From positions 1-28,299 of the IMG/VR virus record IMGVR_UViG_3300020463_000101: a DNA stretch of 28,299 bases; one strand, given 5' to 3'. A program made the position numbers and the translations under genes. The notes beneath the pieces were generated by a model that was not told the DNA's origin, made no database searches, and worked only from the letters and a program-made list of their open reading frames with translations. Of the stretch, positions 1 through 19,768 are shown piece by piece. The DNA comes from a virus. Each line of letters begins with the position of its first letter. Positions within the stretch are counted from its first letter, which is position 1.

Positions 1-497
1 AAGTTTATTTCAAACAGTTTGGGATCTGCTTCTTGTAGCAGTCTAGATCTTTTACGAAGTTTTGTTAATGGTTTTTTGCTGGATAATTTTTTAAGAATCT
101 TTTTTGCAAGTGTGCTTTCGTCAACACCCTCAACATTTGCTTGTTTCATTATTTGACCAAATTTACCAGCAAGTGCTGGATTGCTCATTGCCTTTGAGAC
201 AGCACCTACAAGTTTTCCTACTTCAATGTTTTCAGCACCACTTGGTTTTCTGCCCATTTCTATTTTTTCTATTCCTTTTGCTAGAGGCCCAGGCATTAAT
301 TTTTGTCCCATTTGGCCGCCAACTTTCATAGCACCACGTTTGAATGCTTTTTCAAAATCTTTTTGAGCGTCTATTTCTTTTTTGCTGTCTGCCTTTGACT
401 TTTCTTGATCTTGACCTGGTTGGTCGTTTTCTGGCTCTGCCATTTGACTTTTGCCTTGGATGCCAGTGTCGTATTCAAAAATATCTGAATACTTCAT
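1..497 (-). CDS. Conserved phage protein, C-terminal part outside window
   Basis: Reading from the ATG at 497, the frame stays open for 165 codons to the left edge, so the stop lies outside the window. The start overlaps the upstream stop as TAATG and is preceded by GGAG at good spacing. The N-terminal 45 residues are polar, with many Gln, Glu and Lys. A Gly- and Met-containing stretch follows (GQMGQKLMPGPLAKG), and the visible end is Lys-rich. There is no signal peptide or membrane segment. I do not recognise a catalytic family. Its position at the end of a late-type block with basic and structural-looking neighbours suggests a virion or head-assembly role, but that is inference from context only. 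Confidence 0.8.
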   Translation of the reverse strand, partial: MKYSDIFEYDTGIQGKSQMAEPENDQPGQDQEKSKADSKKEIDAQKDFEKAFKRGAMKVGGQMGQKLMPGPLAKGIEKIEMGRKPSGAENIEVGKLVGAVSKAMSNPALAGKFGQIMKQANVEGVDESTLAKKILKKLSSKKPLTKLRKRSRLLQEADPKLFEIN

Positions 498-775
498 TAC
501 CTTCTCCTATTGAGTTGTCTAACTCTTCTGCTTATAGGACTTCTTCTTTTGGTTCTGGCGGCTTTTCTTGCCATCCTACTTCCCATTTTTGCTCTTGTAC
601 GTTTAAGTACAAATCTTTTCTTTAAGTTAATTGCTTTAGAACACTGACTACTTGATGAAACAAGTCTGCCTTTCCTTGGACCACTGGTACACCTGACCTT
701 ACGCACAATCTTGTTGCCTCGTTTGGCCCAAACCATTTTGGCCTCCATTACTTGTTCTACTTCAACTATTCTCAT
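497..775 (-). CDS. Small, very basic phage protein (92 aa)
   Basis: The protein is dominated by Arg and Lys. It opens with MRIVEVEQVMEAKMVWAKRG, has a KVRCTSGPRKGR segment with Cys, and ends in an Arg-rich tail (RRVRQLNRRR). Such a charge pattern suits nucleic-acid binding, for example an internal head protein packaged with DNA, but no defined DNA-binding fold can be seen. The general pattern resembles a short protein conserved in T4-like marine phages, from memory of that family. It lies one base downstream of the XhlA-like gene and overlaps the next gene by one base, so it is translated as part of a late polycistron. Function is not established. Confidence 0.8.
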   Translation of the reverse strand: MRIVEVEQVMEAKMVWAKRGNKIVRKVRCTSGPRKGRLVSSSSQCSKAINLKKRFVLKRTRAKMGSRMARKAARTKRRSPISRRVRQLNRRR

Positions 776-9998: not shown

Positions 9999-10370
9999 AT
10001 GCAGGATCAAAAAGAAATAGAAGAAAACTTTCCTTTCTTCACAATGATTACTTCTGGCGGTAAAGACTACTTTGGAATTGTTCAAAATCAAGATAATACG
10101 GTAACATCTTTTTATGACTATAATAAATTAGGTTCTCCAGAAGAGAAAAAAGAATTCGTATCAATAGCAGAAACTTGGTGGTGGGAATCAAACAGGCAAA
10201 TTCCAATTGATATTTTTCTCTTTAAGGAGATGCAGTCTTTCAGGCGGTGTTTAAGAACATTTAATAATAAAGATGTAGAAATACAGTTTGGACCAGTTAC
10301 CAGTATTCAAAATATTGTAAAGAAAAGAATTAAAAGACGTACTATTCAGTTAGTGAAGAAAGATCAATAA
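9999..10370 (+). CDS. Conserved phage protein (123 aa), the only plus-strand gene
   Basis: The protein begins MQDQKEIEENFPFFTMITSG. It contains GIVQNQDNTVTSFYDYN (about 26-42) and ETWWWESNRQIPIDIFL (58-74), and ends with a basic region VKKRIKRRTIQLVKK. The Trp triplet and the basic end are features I recall from a short protein shared by T4-like marine phages and of unknown function. No enzyme motif is seen. It is divergent from the fibre-like gene and convergent with the DnaE-like gene, overlapping it by 29 bases tail to tail. The ATG lies one base after the predicted late start site. A second ATG at residue 16 has no ribosome site either. Confidence 0.85.
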   Translation: MQDQKEIEENFPFFTMITSGGKDYFGIVQNQDNTVTSFYDYNKLGSPEEKKEFVSIAETWWWESNRQIPIDIFLFKEMQSFRRCLRTFNNKDVEIQFGPVTSIQNIVKKRIKRRTIQLVKKDQ

Positions 10371-10929
10371 CAATTTTATTTAATTGTACAATTATCGCCA
10401 TTGCGTAACTGTATGCATGTGACTTCTTAAAAAAGTATGTATTGTTATCAGGTTTGACCCAAACTTGATCTTCTATCTCTCCCCAAGTTTTACCAACCAA
10501 ATATCTTTTGCCTGGTCTTATCATAGCAAGTATCATTGCCAGTTGATCAATATTTTTAGGTAAATGTTGCAATACTATATCATAGTGATTGCTTATATGA
10601 AATAATTGTTCTACTATTTCTTTGTGACTAAATAGTTCCCACATTGGTTCCATTTTACAAAGATCATCTAACTCACCTTCTGTGCGAATACCTTTGTAAA
10701 CATTATTGTTAAGAACATCTAGTTTAAAATAACCAATGTCTTCTGCTTCTTTGTGATCAATTGTGCTGAGACCAGTAAGTGGATTATGGGGTATAGGCTG
10801 TATATAAACGCCTGTGTTGTGTTTTTCCATACCATCTGGACGTTTGATACTACCCTTTACATGCCTAAGCACAGACAGTAAATTATCGCGGTTAGCCATA
10901 TCAATATCTACATCGAAATCAATCTTCAC
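10342..10929 (-). CDS. Miniature DnaE-like protein (polymerase III alpha core relic)
   Basis: In 195 residues this protein repeats, in order, hallmark segments of the bacterial replicative polymerase DnaE. IDFDVDID (3-10) matches the catalytic PDxDxD palm motif. KHNTGVYI (36-43) matches HASGVVI, GYFKLDVL (66-73) matches GxxKxDFLGL, AMILAMIRPG (131-140) matches the ALxRPG segment, and FFKKSHAYSYAMA (166-178) matches the FNKSHAAAYAL fingers motif. PHP, tau-binding and OB domains are absent and the intervals are greatly shortened. It is the last gene of the uvsW operon, has a GTG start and overlaps the MazG-like gene by 11 bases. T4-like phages replicate with gp43, so its role is unknown. Similar short proteins occur in marine T4-like phages, from memory. 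Confidence 0.8.
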   Translation of the reverse strand: MKIDFDVDIDMANRDNLLSVLRHVKGSIKRPDGMEKHNTGVYIQPIPHNPLTGLSTIDHKEAEDIGYFKLDVLNNNVYKGIRTEGELDDLCKMEPMWELFSHKEIVEQLFHISNHYDIVLQHLPKNIDQLAMILAMIRPGKRYLVGKTWGEIEDQVWVKPDNNTYFFKKSHAYSYAMAIIVQLNKIVIDLSSLTE

Positions 10930-13962: not shown

Positions 13963-14320
13963 ACTTGTATTTTTCCTTCCTATTTTTCTTTCTATAATGC
14001 TTTTTTATTATGTCTTGCTGTGCCCAACGTCTTTTATTATTCTCTCCATTTTCGCCACCCCAACTTACATTAAGACGTTTTTCTTTGGAAGTTTTTTTAA
14101 TCAGTTTCTTTTCCCAATCAAGTGCTTCTTCCATTGTATGAAACTTATTGACCTCTCTTCCTACACATTCATAGTCACATAGTCTTATTGCTTTATACAA
14201 AGGTGACTTACCCACTTGACTACTTTCTATATGCTCTTCTAATCTTATTGATAAGGGTTTTGCTGTATAACCATAATAAACTTTGCCGTCTGGAAAATCT
14301 ATTCTGTAAACTGTAAACAT
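13955..14320 (-). CDS. GIY-YIG nuclease domain protein (121 aa)
   Basis: The N-terminus VYRIDFPDGKVYYGYT (4-19) is the GIY-YIG strand pair. The catalytic Arg is in the following helix (SIRLEEH, R26), and the metal-binding Glu is likely in ALDWEKKLI (67-75). The basic C-terminal tail (KKHYRKKNRKEKYKYD) may bind DNA. The protein is small, like free-standing GIY-YIG homing-type nucleases (Seg family) of T4-like phages, which cut unoccupied sites or rival genomes. It lies between metK and apt and shares overlaps with both, so it is translated within the operon instead of being a free insertion. Confidence 0.85.
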   Translation of the reverse strand: MFTVYRIDFPDGKVYYGYTAKPLSIRLEEHIESSQVGKSPLYKAIRLCDYECVGREVNKFHTMEEALDWEKKLIKKTSKEKRLNVSWGGENGENNKRRWAQQDIIKKHYRKKNRKEKYKYD

Positions 14321-15423
14321 TAGAAAAGATCAACTTGTTCCCATGGCATTGTAGTATTGCCAAAGTGACCATAATTTGTTGTATCTGCTAACTGTATATT
14401 AAATAATTGAAATTTATCAATTATGCCTTTTGGTGTTAGATTAACTGTTTGTTGTATTTCGTACGCCAGGTCCTGTCTTACTACGCCATCAGCATATACA
14501 TATAAACTAGTAGGTTCTTTTACACCAATAGCATAACTTAATTGTACTGTACAATTTCTTGCCTGACCACTTGCTACAATGTTCTTTGCCAAATATCTAG
14601 CCATATATGCCGCTGATCTGTCGACTTTAGTGCAGTCCTTACCTGAAAAAGCACCACCGCCATGTGGAGCATACCCGCCATAAGTATCAACAATAATTTT
14701 TCGTCCAGTAACACCTGTATCTCCATCTGGTCCTCCTATTACAAATTTGCCTGTTGGATTAATCAAATATTCGGTTTCGTGGTTAATTGGAGCACCTGCT
14801 TCTTCCATTGCTGTTATTACCAATTCTTTTATACCGTCTTGTACAGCATTTAAACTAAATTCTTCTGTGTGCTGACTGCTACATACTATTTTAGTTATGT
14901 GTGTAGGAGTATTAATATCTTGATAGTTCATTGTTACCTGTGCTTTGCTGTCAGGACCTAACCACGAATATGATATACGTCTTTCACTTGCTAAGTACTG
15001 TAAAATTTTGTGACTATAATATATAGAACTTGGCATATAATCAGGTGTTTCATCACAAGCATAACCAAACATAAGTCCTTGATCACCTGCCCCAAAGTCA
15101 TCTGTTCCTAATGCTATATCTGGACTTTGCCCATGTAATTCATTGTATATTTTTAGATTCTCCCAATGGAAGCCATCTTGTTCATATCCAATTTCTCTAA
15201 CAGTACCTCTAATAATTTCTTCTATGTGTTCTTTGTTAATTGGTACAGTACTTTTATATTCGCCTGCTACTGTAACCATATTTGTTGTAACTAATGTTTC
15301 AACTGCCGCTCTGTGACTGCTGTTGCCTGCTATAATATAATCAGCAATTCTATCAGATATCTGGTCTGCTATTTTGTCTGGGTGTCCTTCTGATACACTT
15401 TCACTGGTAAACTCGTAACTCAT
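14320..15423 (-). CDS. metK: S-adenosylmethionine synthetase MetK
   Basis: FTSESVSEGHPDKIADQISD (5-24) is the ATP-binding N-terminal signature. GAGDQGLMFGY (111-121) is the PROSITE-type hexapeptide region, and GGGAFSGKDCTKVDRSAAYM (about 256-275) is the phosphate-binding signature. The length of 367 aa is slightly under the bacterial norm of about 384 and no motif is missing. It makes SAM from methionine and ATP. Possible phage uses are DNA or protein methylation (a SET-domain protein is encoded nearby) or compensation for depleted host SAM. It overlaps the GIY-YIG gene as TAATG and follows a small membrane gene by one base. Confidence 0.96.
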   Translation of the reverse strand: MSYEFTSESVSEGHPDKIADQISDRIADYIIAGNSSHRAAVETLVTTNMVTVAGEYKSTVPINKEHIEEIIRGTVREIGYEQDGFHWENLKIYNELHGQSPDIALGTDDFGAGDQGLMFGYACDETPDYMPSSIYYSHKILQYLASERRISYSWLGPDSKAQVTMNYQDINTPTHITKIVCSSQHTEEFSLNAVQDGIKELVITAMEEAGAPINHETEYLINPTGKFVIGGPDGDTGVTGRKIIVDTYGGYAPHGGGAFSGKDCTKVDRSAAYMARYLAKNIVASGQARNCTVQLSYAIGVKEPTSLYVYADGVVRQDLAYEIQQTVNLTPKGIIDKFQLFNIQLADTTNYGHFGNTTMPWEQVDLF

Positions 15424-15562: not shown

Positions 15563-15879
15563 TATTCCTCCTTGACAAAAATGCCATCTATCATTTTACC
15601 TTTACGATCTTTAATATCCATGTATGCTACTGCTAAACATTCTTCAATAGTGATTTTATTTCTTTCCATAATATTAATCATTACCACTAACATATCACCA
15701 ATGTCATCTCTAATATCATTGCCTTTACAAATGTTATCACTTAGTTCGCCCATTTCTTGAATGAGTTTTGCTAACTGATCTTTGTCTGTAGCACCATCAA
15801 TTAAGTTTCTGTCATGATGCCACTGCGTAATCTTAGTAATAAGATGATATGCTGTAGCCATGCCGTCATTGTCTGCCAT
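15562..15879 (-). CDS. mazG: Second MazG-like nucleotide pyrophosphohydrolase (105 aa)
   Basis: The all-alpha MazG signature is present: IQEMGELSDN (40-49) gives the first metal-binding group (ExxE) and DDIGDMLVVMINI (58-70) the second (DxxD in place of ExxD). The 105-aa length matches phage MazG proteins, which are single-domain. The reaction is NTP to NMP plus PPi. Compared with the second copy at 10919-11179 it has an additional N-terminal segment and a different core, so the two are not recent duplicates. It is flanked by a kinase-nucleotidyltransferase fusion and a small membrane protein that overlaps its stop. Confidence 0.88.
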   Translation of the reverse strand: MADNDGMATAYHLITKITQWHHDRNLIDGATDKDQLAKLIQEMGELSDNICKGNDIRDDIGDMLVVMINIMERNKITIEECLAVAYMDIKDRKGKMIDGIFVKEE

Positions 15880-16655
15880 TATAATTTTCCTTCTTCTCTC
15901 ATTTGTTCACGTATTTTGGTAGCACTGATATCGTGTATAGCATCGTCAAAAACTTCTTGCTCAATTTTATATCCAACATCTCTACCATACGTTATGTTTA
16001 AGAGGTTTGGTACAACCTCTATCTTTACTTTACCAGCAAATTTATATAAACTTTGTTGTAAGTTTTCTATAACTTCATGTGCTGGAAAAGGATTCTTTTC
16101 ATCAGTTGGCATATCTCTAACCATTAAAAACACTTGATTGTGTTTAGCCAATGCTCTATCGAACAATGCTTGGTGTCCAGGATGCCAGGGTTGAAATCTT
16201 CCAAGCATTTGTGTAGTGGGTGCCTGGTTATCCCATATAAATCTTTGTCCAATTTCATAAGCAATTATTTTAGCATCTACATCACCACGTTGTTCGTGTA
16301 TATTGTAGTCTGTTGCTATTGGTCTTTCAAATACTTTATTAGTATCTTCAAATCTACCTGCTTCTATTGTGTCTACAAATATTTCATAGTCAGCAAAGAA
16401 TTTATTTCTTGCACTTTCAAATGGTGCTACAAAATCTGCCATGGCAATCTTGCCTTCTAATTCAGCATTTATACATAAATCAATCATTCGTTGATTTTGC
16501 CTTAATCTACCTTCTTCAGAAAAGTCCCAGTCGTCTGCTTCTTCTCTAACTTTATCTGCGTTGAACCAGGCAACTTTATCACCTAGGTATTCAACCAGTC
16601 TTTCTGCCAAGTAAGTTTTTCCACTACCCGGTAATCCAAAAATTAATACTCTCAT
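15879..16655 (-). CDS. Kinase-nucleotidyltransferase fusion (APS-kinase-like plus HxGH)
   Basis: The N-terminal half (about 1-140) is a P-loop kinase close to the APS kinase/CysC type: GLPGSGKT (7-14), FNADKVREE (31-39), DWDFSEEGRLRQNQRMIDLC and MADFVAPFESAR (72-83). The C-terminal half is an HxGH nucleotidyltransferase: GRFQPWHPGH (152-161), an FLMVRD strand and ISATKIREQM (243-252), like the NMN adenylyltransferase ISSTxxR motif. The order, kinase then nucleotidyltransferase, is opposite to NadR. The substrate cannot be fixed: NAD salvage, PAPS or another cofactor or nucleotide modification are possible. A sulfotransferase-like gene in the same window makes a PAPS link attractive. The start overlaps the upstream stop as ATGA. 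Confidence 0.85.
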   Translation of the reverse strand: MRVLIFGLPGSGKTYLAERLVEYLGDKVAWFNADKVREEADDWDFSEEGRLRQNQRMIDLCINAELEGKIAMADFVAPFESARNKFFADYEIFVDTIEAGRFEDTNKVFERPIATDYNIHEQRGDVDAKIIAYEIGQRFIWDNQAPTTQMLGRFQPWHPGHQALFDRALAKHNQVFLMVRDMPTDEKNPFPAHEVIENLQQSLYKFAGKVKIEVVPNLLNITYGRDVGYKIEQEVFDDAIHDISATKIREQMREEGKL

Positions 16656-17401
16656 CTATCCTCGTTTTGCTCTTTTTCGTACTCGGCATTTTCATCAAAA
16701 CCTTCCCAATACTCGTCATCAAGTTCTTCGAATTGTCCATATGAATCGTGCCACTTCTTATTTAACCAACCAATGTCTGCATTATAACTTTTACCGGTTG
16801 TGTCATTGTTATCGTAATCAGTAAACAATTCTTCTTTGTTATAATACACTCTATCAACCATCTCGCACATGTTAGTTTCTGCTAATCCAATACCTAATTT
16901 AGTATAATCAAACTCTTCATCTGTGTCAATAAACCAACAACCAAAACCACCTTTTTCTGAACTGTGAAATAGTAAAACAGGAACATATTCTTCTAAATCC
17001 TCATTTGGTTTATCTTTACCAAAGTATCCTGCCTCTCTACTATACACTTGTATAGGTTCACCGTTCCACACTTCTTTTTCCCATCCATAATCATCACTGC
17101 CATCTGATGGAACTTGATGTACAGTAAATCCTCCGTCACCATATGGAGCATTAAGATGTTCTATATCATCGCATTCCCACATGTAATAATCATCTCGTGG
17201 ACTTAATATTGCTTCTGGATTTTCGTGTTCTTCCATTTCAAATTCATCATGTACACAGTTGTCTTCTGCGTTTAGCACTAGTTCGACCAAATCGTCTTGT
17301 TCTAACTTCAAGGATTGTTTTACAAACTCCTCTTTTACTTCTCCAATGACAAGTTCTCCTCCATAATTACTACCTTCTATTCTGTATCTATATTTTGCCA
17401 T
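16652..17401 (-). CDS. Large acidic conserved protein (249 aa)
   Basis: The protein is strongly acidic, with many Glu and Asp, plus frequent Tyr and Trp (for example WECDDIEHLNAPYGDG and WLNKKWHDSYGQFEELDDEYW). It starts MAKYRYRIEGSNYGGELVIG, suggesting an N-terminal beta domain. There is no membrane segment or recognised catalytic motif. Highly acidic phage proteins of this size sometimes mimic DNA to inhibit host nucleases, but there is no direct evidence for that here. It overlaps the neighbours by one and four bases (TAATG, ATGA) and is transcribed with the SET-domain gene. Confidence 0.7.
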   Translation of the reverse strand: MAKYRYRIEGSNYGGELVIGEVKEEFVKQSLKLEQDDLVELVLNAEDNCVHDEFEMEEHENPEAILSPRDDYYMWECDDIEHLNAPYGDGGFTVHQVPSDGSDDYGWEKEVWNGEPIQVYSREAGYFGKDKPNEDLEEYVPVLLFHSSEKGGFGCWFIDTDEEFDYTKLGIGLAETNMCEMVDRVYYNKEELFTDYDNNDTTGKSYNADIGWLNKKWHDSYGQFEELDDEYWEGFDENAEYEKEQNEDR

Positions 17402-17757
17402 TACTCTTCTATTTCTGGTTCTGTGTCATCACCAACTGTTCCGTCATAACCTTTAAATCTGTAAAACACAGTTATCTCTTCTCCTGCCTTGACAGGTCTA
17501 ATCACATGTAATATTCTGTCGCCTTTGTCAGTGGCAATGTAACTATTAGGATCATCGCTATGATTAATAAATCCACCTAAAGGAGTTCTCACCCATTCGT
17601 GTCTATCTCTATTGTGTACTAGCACATGAGTTTCACCTAATACAGTTCCAGCATTTAAATAACTTGTTGCGTGTAAACCTAAGCCATCAATTAGACTGTT
17701 CAGTATAGTAACTTCCTTTGGTAAAGGTCTGTATGTGCTTTCGTTAAAAGTTTTCAT
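17401..17757 (-). CDS. SET-domain protein (probable protein-lysine methyltransferase)
   Basis: The 118-aa protein (ATG at 17757, GGTG upstream; a TTG five codons earlier overlaps the upstream stop but is less likely) has the SET order. SLIDGLGLHATSYLNAGTVLGE (from about 21) gives the GxG and the strand leading to the cofactor, GGFINHSDDPNS (61-72) is the NHSxxPN cofactor/active-site motif, and HVIRPVKAGEEITVFYRF (84-101) is the GEEI/LTxxY motif with the catalytic Tyr. There is no post-SET cysteine cluster. SET enzymes transfer methyl groups from SAM to Lys, so metK nearby is suggestive. The target (phage or host protein) is unknown. Confidence 0.85.
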   Translation of the reverse strand: MKTFNESTYRPLPKEVTILNSLIDGLGLHATSYLNAGTVLGETHVLVHNRDRHEWVRTPLGGFINHSDDPNSYIATDKGDRILHVIRPVKAGEEITVFYRFKGYDGTVGDDTEPEIEE

Positions 17758-17768
17758 TATGTCACCGA

Positions 17769-18272
17769 TCAAAATACATCGCCTAGGTCTACAACGTCTG
17801 GAATTTTATTTGCTTCTTTTATAAAAAGTACACTAGACGGAGTTTTTTTATTTTCTATTGGTGTTACCAAAAGGTGTCCGTGTTTCAACTTTGGAAAGAA
17901 CCATTTTACTTCTTGATATATGTTTGTAATAAAAATTTCTTCTATCCTAGGTATTTTGTTATCCATAGGGTTAAACACTGGTGTTCTAAATCCTCTATTA
18001 TTAAGACTTGTAAGTGGAACAATTTCTACTTCTGTGTGGCAATCGTCATCGCATATTGCTATACTCCAATCCATTGGCATTTGTATTTCATTACCGCCAA
18101 TATTTAAAACTATTGCTGGTGAATAAAAACTTTCTAAAAATACCAAAGGGTGCCAAAAGTAATCATAATACTCTGGGTCATTTACATCTAAAACACAATA
18201 TCTTAGATCATCAATTTCATCTGGAACACTATCCAGGTTATACACGTCATTCTCAACGGTTAATATATTCAT
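17769..18272 (-). CDS. Conserved phage protein (167 aa), function unknown
   Basis: The protein has beta-rich stretches: AIVLNIGGNEIQMPMDWSIAI, then DDDCHTEVEIVPLTSLNN, and VKWFFPKLKHGHLLVTPI. The pattern MPxDWSI...FFPKLxxG is one I associate with a conserved protein of T4-like marine phages. The C-terminus ends VVDLGDVF, an acidic-hydrophobic tail that recalls peptides that bind the sliding clamp in T4 (gp33/gp55 tails). This could mean a clamp-linked role in late transcription or replication, but is speculative. It overlaps uvsW by four bases (ATGA). Confidence 0.75.
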   Translation of the reverse strand: MNILTVENDVYNLDSVPDEIDDLRYCVLDVNDPEYYDYFWHPLVFLESFYSPAIVLNIGGNEIQMPMDWSIAICDDDCHTEVEIVPLTSLNNRGFRTPVFNPMDNKIPRIEEIFITNIYQEVKWFFPKLKHGHLLVTPIENKKTPSSVLFIKEANKIPDVVDLGDVF

Positions 18273-19732
18273 ACATACTCCACTTTTGTTATTTTAAAAG
18301 GATATTCGGCTTCCTTATAAAATTTCTTTCTTTCAGTTAAATGTTTTTTACTATATTTTAGTGTGCTAGTAATATCATACACATTTACAAAGTCTTTATC
18401 CTTGGCTCTTCTAATACCTCTGCCAATACTTTGGATTACTCTTACAAAACTTTTGCCTGGTTCAATTAAAACTAAATTGAATATTCTTGGTATATTAATA
18501 CCAACTGCGGCTACACCATATGTAGCAACAATTACTTTTCCTGTGGAGTCAGCAACTTCATCATAATTTTCTTTTCTTTCTGCTGATTTCATACCGCCCG
18601 ATATAAACACCCAGTCTGGATTTTTTTCTATTAGCATTTCTCCTGTTTTAATTCTGTCTACTAAAATTAATGTATTGCCTGCTCCTTTTATGCCGTTGGC
18701 CATCTCGCTAAAGAATTCTATTCTTTCTGGATTTGTTGTAATCCATTTTAATTCTTGTGCGTAATTATTAAAACCAACATGCGAATCTACAAGTTGTAAT
18801 ACATTAACTTCTAAATTAGCAAGTATTCCTTTGTCTTGTAATTCTTTAGCACTTAGTTGTCCTACTATTGGACCAATTGTGCTAGTACAGGCAACCTCTT
18901 CGTGTTTGTCTTTTGGTATTGTACCTGTTAGTCCCCAACGTACAGGAACATTAGCAAATACACTACTTAATAATTGTTTAAGTACATCTGCTTTTGCTTT
19001 GTGTACTTCGTCTACCATTACACATACAACACCATCTATAAATGTTTGTATGTCAAAATCTACTGCTTCTTTGGCCTTAGATTTCTTGTGTAGTATTTCT
19101 AAACTTTGCCATGTACAAATTGTGTGCGTTTTATTGTATTCTTTTCTGTCCCCGTAGAAAACACCAACGTCTAGGCCTAAATGCTTGTAGTCCGCTTCTG
19201 TTTGCGTTACAAGGTCCTTATTAGGCACTATCACTATTGTTCTACCATACTGTTCGCACTTGTGACTCAGTACTGCTGTAACCAATGTTTTACCGGCGCC
19301 AGTGGCAATCTCCTGTAAGCATTGTGGCGTTTCTAAAAAGCGATTGATTATCTCCACTTGATAATCTCTTAGTATAATTGGCAATCCTTCTGCTGGATGA
19401 TTTTTAGGCCAACTATATTGCTCATATGAATCTTGCTCAACTTTGTCAAAGGCAAAACTCCAAGTTTGTCTTTTGTCATCTACCTCTACGTCATAACCAA
19501 GTTCAGAGACAACCGGAAGTAATTGATCTAATAAGTTTAAGTAACTTCTACCACCTATGTCGCAATATCTCACATAACCGTCCCAGCGACCTAATTTGTA
19601 TGCTGGCATGTGATATGCGTAGGGTAAGAAATATTTACAAGTGTCAGACAGTTTTCGTCTAGTAGCAACATCTAAGTCATGAAACTTGATATTTACTTCA
19701 TCTCTTATTTCCAGTCTTGTACTTCTAGCCAT
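18269..19732 (-). CDS. uvsW: ATP-dependent helicase UvsW
   Basis: The 487-aa protein carries an N-terminal region of about 110 residues, then superfamily 2 motifs: LRDYQVEII (Q-like/motif Ia region, 121-129), ATGAGKT (143-149, Walker A), VDEVHKA (240-246, DExH box) and GLTGTIP (about 268, motif III). The second RecA-like half has GINIPR and QSIGRGIRRAKD (motif VI). This is the order and length of T4 UvsW (587 aa, here shorter), which unwinds R-loops and branched DNA and supports recombination-dependent replication and repair. It is transcribed first in a 17-gene operon from a consensus promoter whose start falls next to the ATG. Confidence 0.93.
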   Translation of the reverse strand: MARSTRLEIRDEVNIKFHDLDVATRRKLSDTCKYFLPYAYHMPAYKLGRWDGYVRYCDIGGRSYLNLLDQLLPVVSELGYDVEVDDKRQTWSFAFDKVEQDSYEQYSWPKNHPAEGLPIILRDYQVEIINRFLETPQCLQEIATGAGKTLVTAVLSHKCEQYGRTIVIVPNKDLVTQTEADYKHLGLDVGVFYGDRKEYNKTHTICTWQSLEILHKKSKAKEAVDFDIQTFIDGVVCVMVDEVHKAKADVLKQLLSSVFANVPVRWGLTGTIPKDKHEEVACTSTIGPIVGQLSAKELQDKGILANLEVNVLQLVDSHVGFNNYAQELKWITTNPERIEFFSEMANGIKGAGNTLILVDRIKTGEMLIEKNPDWVFISGGMKSAERKENYDEVADSTGKVIVATYGVAAVGINIPRIFNLVLIEPGKSFVRVIQSIGRGIRRAKDKDFVNVYDITSTLKYSKKHLTERKKFYKEAEYPFKITKVEYV

Positions 19733-19739
19733 AAACTAT

Positions 19740-19768
19740 ATTATACATTTAAACATACAAATTGTCAA
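19740..19768 (-). promoter_or_regulatory. Consensus sigma70 promoter for uvsW operon
   Basis: On the minus strand TTGACA (19763-19768) and TATAAT (19740-19745) are both perfect and separated by 17 bases. The start is expected near 19733, one base before the uvsW ATG (19732). The promoter overlaps the short gap after the glycosyltransferase-like gene. Confidence 0.9.

Follow-up and report, generated by a model that had tools for sequence, protein, structure and literature searches.

SET-type protein-methylating enzymes are best known from human chromosomes. A gene of this type in a tailed phage, whose host is presumably bacterial, raises two questions: does it encode a genuine enzyme, and which protein would it methylate? 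We address these questions for a viral DNA stretch of 28,299 nucleotides (IMGVR_UViG_3300020463_000101; hereafter "the window"). Our preferred reading, to which we assign a probability of about 0.62, is that the gene codes for a catalytically competent minimal SET-domain protein methyltransferase and represents a mobile accessory gene of tailed marine phages.

A minimal SET domain in a phage reading frame

The sequence-only reading had placed a SET-domain gene at 17401-17757, coordinates that proved exact, and the coding strand is the minus strand. The gene and its motifs are as follows.

17401-17757, minus: SET-domain gene, 118 amino acids, ATG at 17757-17755, TAA at 17403-17401; assigned by Pfam SET, relatives and fold
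17677-17685, minus: N-terminal GxG motif of the SET domain, G25-L-G27; G27 invariant and G25 conserved in >90% of 47 relatives
17545-17589, minus: R57-T-P-L-G-G-F-I-N-H-S-D-D-P-N71, the family signature together with the NHSxxPN motif of the SAM site; R57, T58, P59, G61-H66 and N71 unchanged in all 47 relatives
17461-17484, minus: G92-E-E-I-T-V-F-Y99 with the presumed catalytic Y99; E94 and Y99 invariant, Y99 aligning with the tyrosine that closes the motif of the chlorovirus enzyme vSET

The start codon is preceded by GGTGA, and the plus strand of the same interval is interrupted by stops throughout. A TTG five codons upstream is a possible alternative start, yet the relatives align to the ATG. 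The 118-amino acid protein matches Pfam PF00856 (E 2.7e-9; 37.8 bits at a gathering score of 22.4) over profile positions 62-104 only, i.e., the C-terminal half of the domain. The motifs expected of that family (GxG, NHSxxPN and GEExxxxY) are present in the correct order, the second as N65-H66-S-D-D-P-N71, which bears out the earlier description of GxG, NHSxxPN and GEEITxxY in SET order. Cysteine-rich zinc modules of the pre- or post-SET type are absent: nothing fits before residue 10, and no cysteine cluster follows Y99 across the family. The protein is thus a minimal SET domain, devoid of pre- and post-SET regions and with a very short SET-I segment, and its gene is apparently intact. An NCBIfam search with the protein returned nothing, and the anti-phage and counter-defence families of PADLOC-DB gave no match, a role of this kind being compatible with absence from that library. 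Designed pentatricopeptide proteins, the best sequence matches, were dismissed as repeat artefacts over residues 2-26.

Relatives found by tblastn occur in the phages P-SSM7 and P-RSM6, Pelagibacter phage Kolga and the single-cell virus AG-345-P14, with a weak match in Rhodoferax phage P26218; every annotated one is called hypothetical. A scan of viral contigs yielded at least 124 relatives, 80 of which were retained, and many are just 93-105 amino acids long. Across 47 aligned relatives, with identities down to 37%, residues L12, S21, G27, G41, R57, T58, P59, G61, G62, F63, I64, N65, H66, N71, E94 and Y99 are invariant, and each of the 47 matches PF00856 independently. Within the close clade, the median dN/dS is 0.17 over 190 non-saturated pairs and ranges from 0.02 to 0.16 in the 22 pairs of lowest dS. 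The argument is built on these closer pairs, because the synonymous distances of the window gene itself are near saturation. Judged from these ratios, the SET gene is under purifying selection.

Given that the frame is short and hypothetical in annotated phages, a spurious reading frame or a chance motif match might be considered. We give this explanation practically no credence, since it is already refuted by the Pfam match, the fold, the 80 relatives and the dN/dS values.

The structure was predicted with AlphaFold2 from 47 alignment rows, with sequences from the phage collection left out. The model reaches a pLDDT of 82.7, exceeding 85 for residues 11-100 and 90 in most core blocks, and dropping below 50 over most of the tail, where the last ~16 residues are unstructured. 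A Foldseek search of the PDB placed SET and PR domains on top, the best match being vSET (3kma, E 3e-6). VIA-align gave a Z score of 11.7 to vSET over 89 residues (11-99), 12.0 to 4rz0 and 10.4-12 across fifty SET entries. A search of predicted viral proteins with the same model retrieved annotated SET proteins from tailed phages and giant viruses. Membership in the SET fold, including its pseudoknot, is derived here from structural alignment of the predicted model rather than from tracing the threading in coordinates. The sequence-only reading had named a prediction without the SET fold as its refutation; the model aligns with solved SET domains. The minimal phage-operon SET domain proposed in that reading is now backed by the sequence, the family profile, the predicted structure and the signs of selection. 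The peptide groove cannot be argued from the model, because SET-I is very short and the post-SET region is missing; the substrate site would presumably be open or completed by a partner.

Operon context and mobility of the SET gene

In the window, the SET gene is embedded in a tight row of genes in the order uvsW, 167-amino acid gene, SET, 249-amino acid gene, kinase and MazG-like gene, with overlaps or gaps of at most 11 bp.

19740-19768, minus: sigma70-like promoter TTGACA-N17-TATAAT before uvsW; hexamers match 12/12
18269-19732, minus: uvsW-like helicase, first gene of the operon (phrog_16, E 9e-72)
17769-18272, minus: upstream gene, 167 amino acids, phrog_11279, function unassigned; 11 bp before SET, adjoining uvsW in relatives without SET
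16652-17401, minus: downstream gene, 249 amino acids, function unassigned; its ATG shares 1 base with the SET stop (TAATG), as placed by the empty-site alignment

The exact promoter hexamers recur at the same place in 13/18 relative contigs, while the surrounding sequence differs. We infer that the genes from uvsW to the MazG-like gene form one operon, which would be read by a host-type RNA polymerase; operon and timing of SET are both deduced from consensus matches only. A T4-type late promoter (TATAAATA) was rejected as a candidate, as none lies near the SET gene and the matches are fewer than expected by chance. The perfect promoter ends just 7 bases before the uvsW start codon, and hence, translation of uvsW may start leaderless or nearly so. 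The product of 15879-16655 (minus) joins a P-loop kinase-like domain at the N-terminus to a cytidylyltransferase-like domain at the C-terminus, and is 90-97% identical in most relatives, far above the conservation of its neighbours.

The sequence-only reading had put weight on the position of the gene next to replication genes. This is true in the window, which carries uvsW, uvsY, uvsX, gp41, gp61 and gp32, but the adjacency is not conserved among relatives. In addition, 10342-10929 (minus) codes for a 195-amino acid protein that matches the phrog_11778 "DNA polymerase", reads like a lone fragment of a bacterial DnaE-type polymerase and is kept in distant relatives (L155-L160). The nearest named phages by the window terminase are PA5oct-like Pseudomonas jumbo phages (58%).

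Thirty distinct contigs harbour both flanking genes (the 167- and the 249-amino acid gene, between uvsW and the kinase/nucleotidyltransferase gene) with no SET in between. In 6 of these 30 the junction was aligned to the base: only the flanking stop and start codons and the ribosome-binding site are found where the window has SET. Three records (L122, L123 and L128; 130, 62 and 50 kb) are very close to the window (UvsX 95-97%, terminase 91-92% identical), and no SET domain was found anywhere in them. Conversely, the SET proteins of L004 and L006 are 82-83% identical to that of the window, whereas their UvsX is 27% identical and no match to the window terminase was found. In L009, L013 and L015 (UvsX 82%), SET instead follows uvsY. 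At least five different contexts were observed.

Window: SET between the 167- and 249-amino acid genes
L002, L003: SET after thyX
L004, L006, L007: SET after a B-family polymerase gene
L009-L015: SET after uvsY
L020-L034: SET before a peptide deformylase gene

In the phylogenetic tree, the window SET belongs to a clade of 25 made up of phage sequences only (support 100/97) and groups with L002-L004, L006 and L007 (98/93), not with L009-L015. Taken together, the pattern shows that SET moves horizontally, as a single gene and mobile cargo, among distantly related T4-like phages. The records compared are mostly fragments and may not include near copies of the window, so that a sibling phage with SET at the same site as in the window could exist. 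The significance once attached to the replication-gene neighbourhood is therefore not upheld: SET is an insertion, occurs in at least five contexts and is missing from the closest backbones. Four loci (L026, L028, L029 and L031) carry two tandem, diverged SET genes (~40% identical) between glutaredoxin-like and peptide deformylase genes.

Relation to known SET proteins and the case for catalysis

Viral enzymes of the vSET type are homodimers that act on Lys27 of histone H3. The closest parallel to the phage protein is vSET itself (A612L of chlorovirus PBCV-1; PDB 1n3j/3kma), which is likewise a viral gene product and the top Foldseek match, comprises 119 compared to 118 amino acids, consists of SET alone without pre- and post-SET and shares the order of motifs. 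The phage family profile covers vSET residues 5-105 over their full length, including GxG (E 2e-9), at 24-27% identity, and matches MLL SET domains with an E value of 4e-10; built on the family alignment, the match thus extends into the N-terminal half of the domain. Relative to the phage family consensus, vSET is longer by ~18 residues in the stretch from the second strand to the NHS motif, and it operates in a eukaryotic host on histone H3 (PMC7019647). As the host of the phage is presumably bacterial, histone H3 is not expected to be its substrate.

SET domains are established in bacteria and archaea (PMC3980110). A possible functional parallel to the phage protein is Go1-SET of Methanosarcina mazei, a prokaryotic SET protein with a non-eukaryotic target; unlike here, an in vitro substrate is known, the DNA-binding protein MC1-alpha (PMC3980110). 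Bacterial genes of the "RTPLGG" type (Porticoccaceae, Flavobacteriaceae, SAR86 and others) share the RTPLGGFINH signature and 40-57% identity with the window protein; these genes are, at least in part, chromosomal, whereas the window gene falls into the phage-only clade. The signature was found in 27 bacterial genome contigs, some clearly chromosomal, e.g., between argC-like and proC-like genes. Others may be phage sequence in assemblies; one (L108) is nearly identical to phage Kolga. In three Flavobacteriia-type loci (L092, L094 and L104) SET sits inside a row of arginine/proline biosynthesis genes (argG-argC-[SET]-proC-argD-like), and in Porticoccaceae (L091, L095-L099) between a fabB-like beta-ketoacyl synthase gene and peroxiredoxin/ssb genes.

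Tailed-phage SET proteins were annotated earlier (PMC9025141), including those of an uncultured Caudovirales phage (BFVD), Stenotrophomonas phage Ps15 (ORF62) and Synechococcus phage Sf-CH1b, which have the SET fold or motifs in common with the window protein. The first two are likened to it by annotation rather than by sequence; the Sf-CH1b protein belongs to another subfamily and shares only C-terminal motifs in BLASTP. Together with the at least 124 relatives in viral contigs, these annotations make a phage copy less unusual than the sequence-only reading had implied. What is unusually clear here, given the known SET proteins of tailed phages, bacteria, archaea and a chlorovirus, is the mobility of the gene.

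The papers that we found on SET domains in phages mention them in passing, and none reports a function or activity for a tailed-phage SET. This, along with the very short SET-I and the absent post-SET region, would suit a SET fold retained for binding SAM or peptides, with no methyl transfer, in the role of a decoy or regulator. We regard this explanation as improbable: the motif residues are unchanged, or nearly so, across 47 relatives with identities down to 37%, the presumed catalytic tyrosine being among the invariant ones, and the equally bare vSET is an active enzyme (PMC7019647).

Candidate substrates

According to the preferred reading of a competent methyltransferase, the gene would be transcribed early or middle by the host RNA polymerase, and its product would bind SAM in the pocket formed by the NH and GxG motifs and, with Y99 as the catalytic residue, methylate a lysine on a target protein supplied in trans. 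The label "lysine methyltransferase" is borrowed from the family and is thus putative. The protein would accordingly be an accessory enzyme acting on a host or a phage protein. Since SET moves between contexts, its adjoining replication genes says nothing about the substrate. No conserved neighbour in the SET clade points to one, and adjacent genes were rejected as a fixed substrate, given the varied contexts even among members of one SET clade. With neighbours differing between phages, a substrate common to many infected cells or phages is more likely than the product of an adjacent gene. Candidates are host proteins of transcription, translation or the nucleoid, and conserved phage proteins.

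The window also carries a gene for the supply of the methyl donor.

14320-15423, minus: metK, S-adenosylmethionine synthetase, complete in three Pfam domains

The product of metK makes the methyl donor, and both genes lie on the same strand within one 4-kb stretch, as if SET and the phage's own metK formed a methylation module. Yet, metK is lacking in 20 SET-bearing records, including the complete P-SSM7, P-RSM6 and Kolga, and occurs at the same place in many relatives without SET. The presence of metK is unrelated to that of SET; a conserved module is refuted, and we consider a functional pairing highly improbable.

The most concrete lead comes from cyanophages, where the gene order is phrog_516, SET, gp25 and gp6. 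The phrog_516 product is a lysine-rich, strongly basic protein of 49 amino acids, and SET might modify this small phage protein, or an analogous basic protein encoded elsewhere in the window phage. SET directly or nearly follows phrog_516 in ~10 loci, including P-RSM6 and AG-345-P14. Furthermore, Synechococcus phages (S-B05, RB11-B, Sf-CH1b and SynMITS9220M01) carry a second SET subfamily of high divergence, which scores 50.5 bits against Pfam SET, is very weakly related to the window family in BLAST and likewise starts directly after phrog_516.

L161, 3144-3515: second-subfamily SET, after phrog_516 and before PurM-like and gp25 genes
L162, 2498-2869: same arrangement
L163, 2501-2866: same arrangement

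However, phrog_516 occurs in 437 phage records and adjoins SET in a handful, being widespread in cyanomyoviruses without SET. Moreover, PurM-like and endonuclease genes are inserted in this interval as well, which makes it an insertion hotspot, and SET of P-SSM7 lies elsewhere, after nrdB. The small basic protein of the window (497-775, minus; 92 amino acids, extremely basic) matches neither Pfam nor PHROG families, the window being a fragment beyond which a phrog_516 homologue may lie. On balance, we deem a small phage protein of this kind an unlikely substrate.

More broadly, we tentatively propose, as a possibility rather than an expectation, that the mobile phage SET family methylates a specific lysine early in infection, either on a conserved protein of the bacterium (from RNA polymerase, the ribosome or the nucleoid) or on a lysine-rich phage protein like phrog_516. 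If true, the former would be the bacterial counterpart of the action of vSET on host chromatin, and the latter a dedicated enzyme-substrate pair of the phage. Lysine methylation of proteins by phage enzymes during bacterial infection is apparently undescribed in the literature searched. The substrate question is directly testable, because phages whose hosts are in culture (P-SSM7, P-RSM6 and Kolga) carry this compact, recurrently transferred and selected enzyme. Finally, the very small relatives, down to 93 amino acids, lend themselves to defining the minimal requirements of a SET domain.
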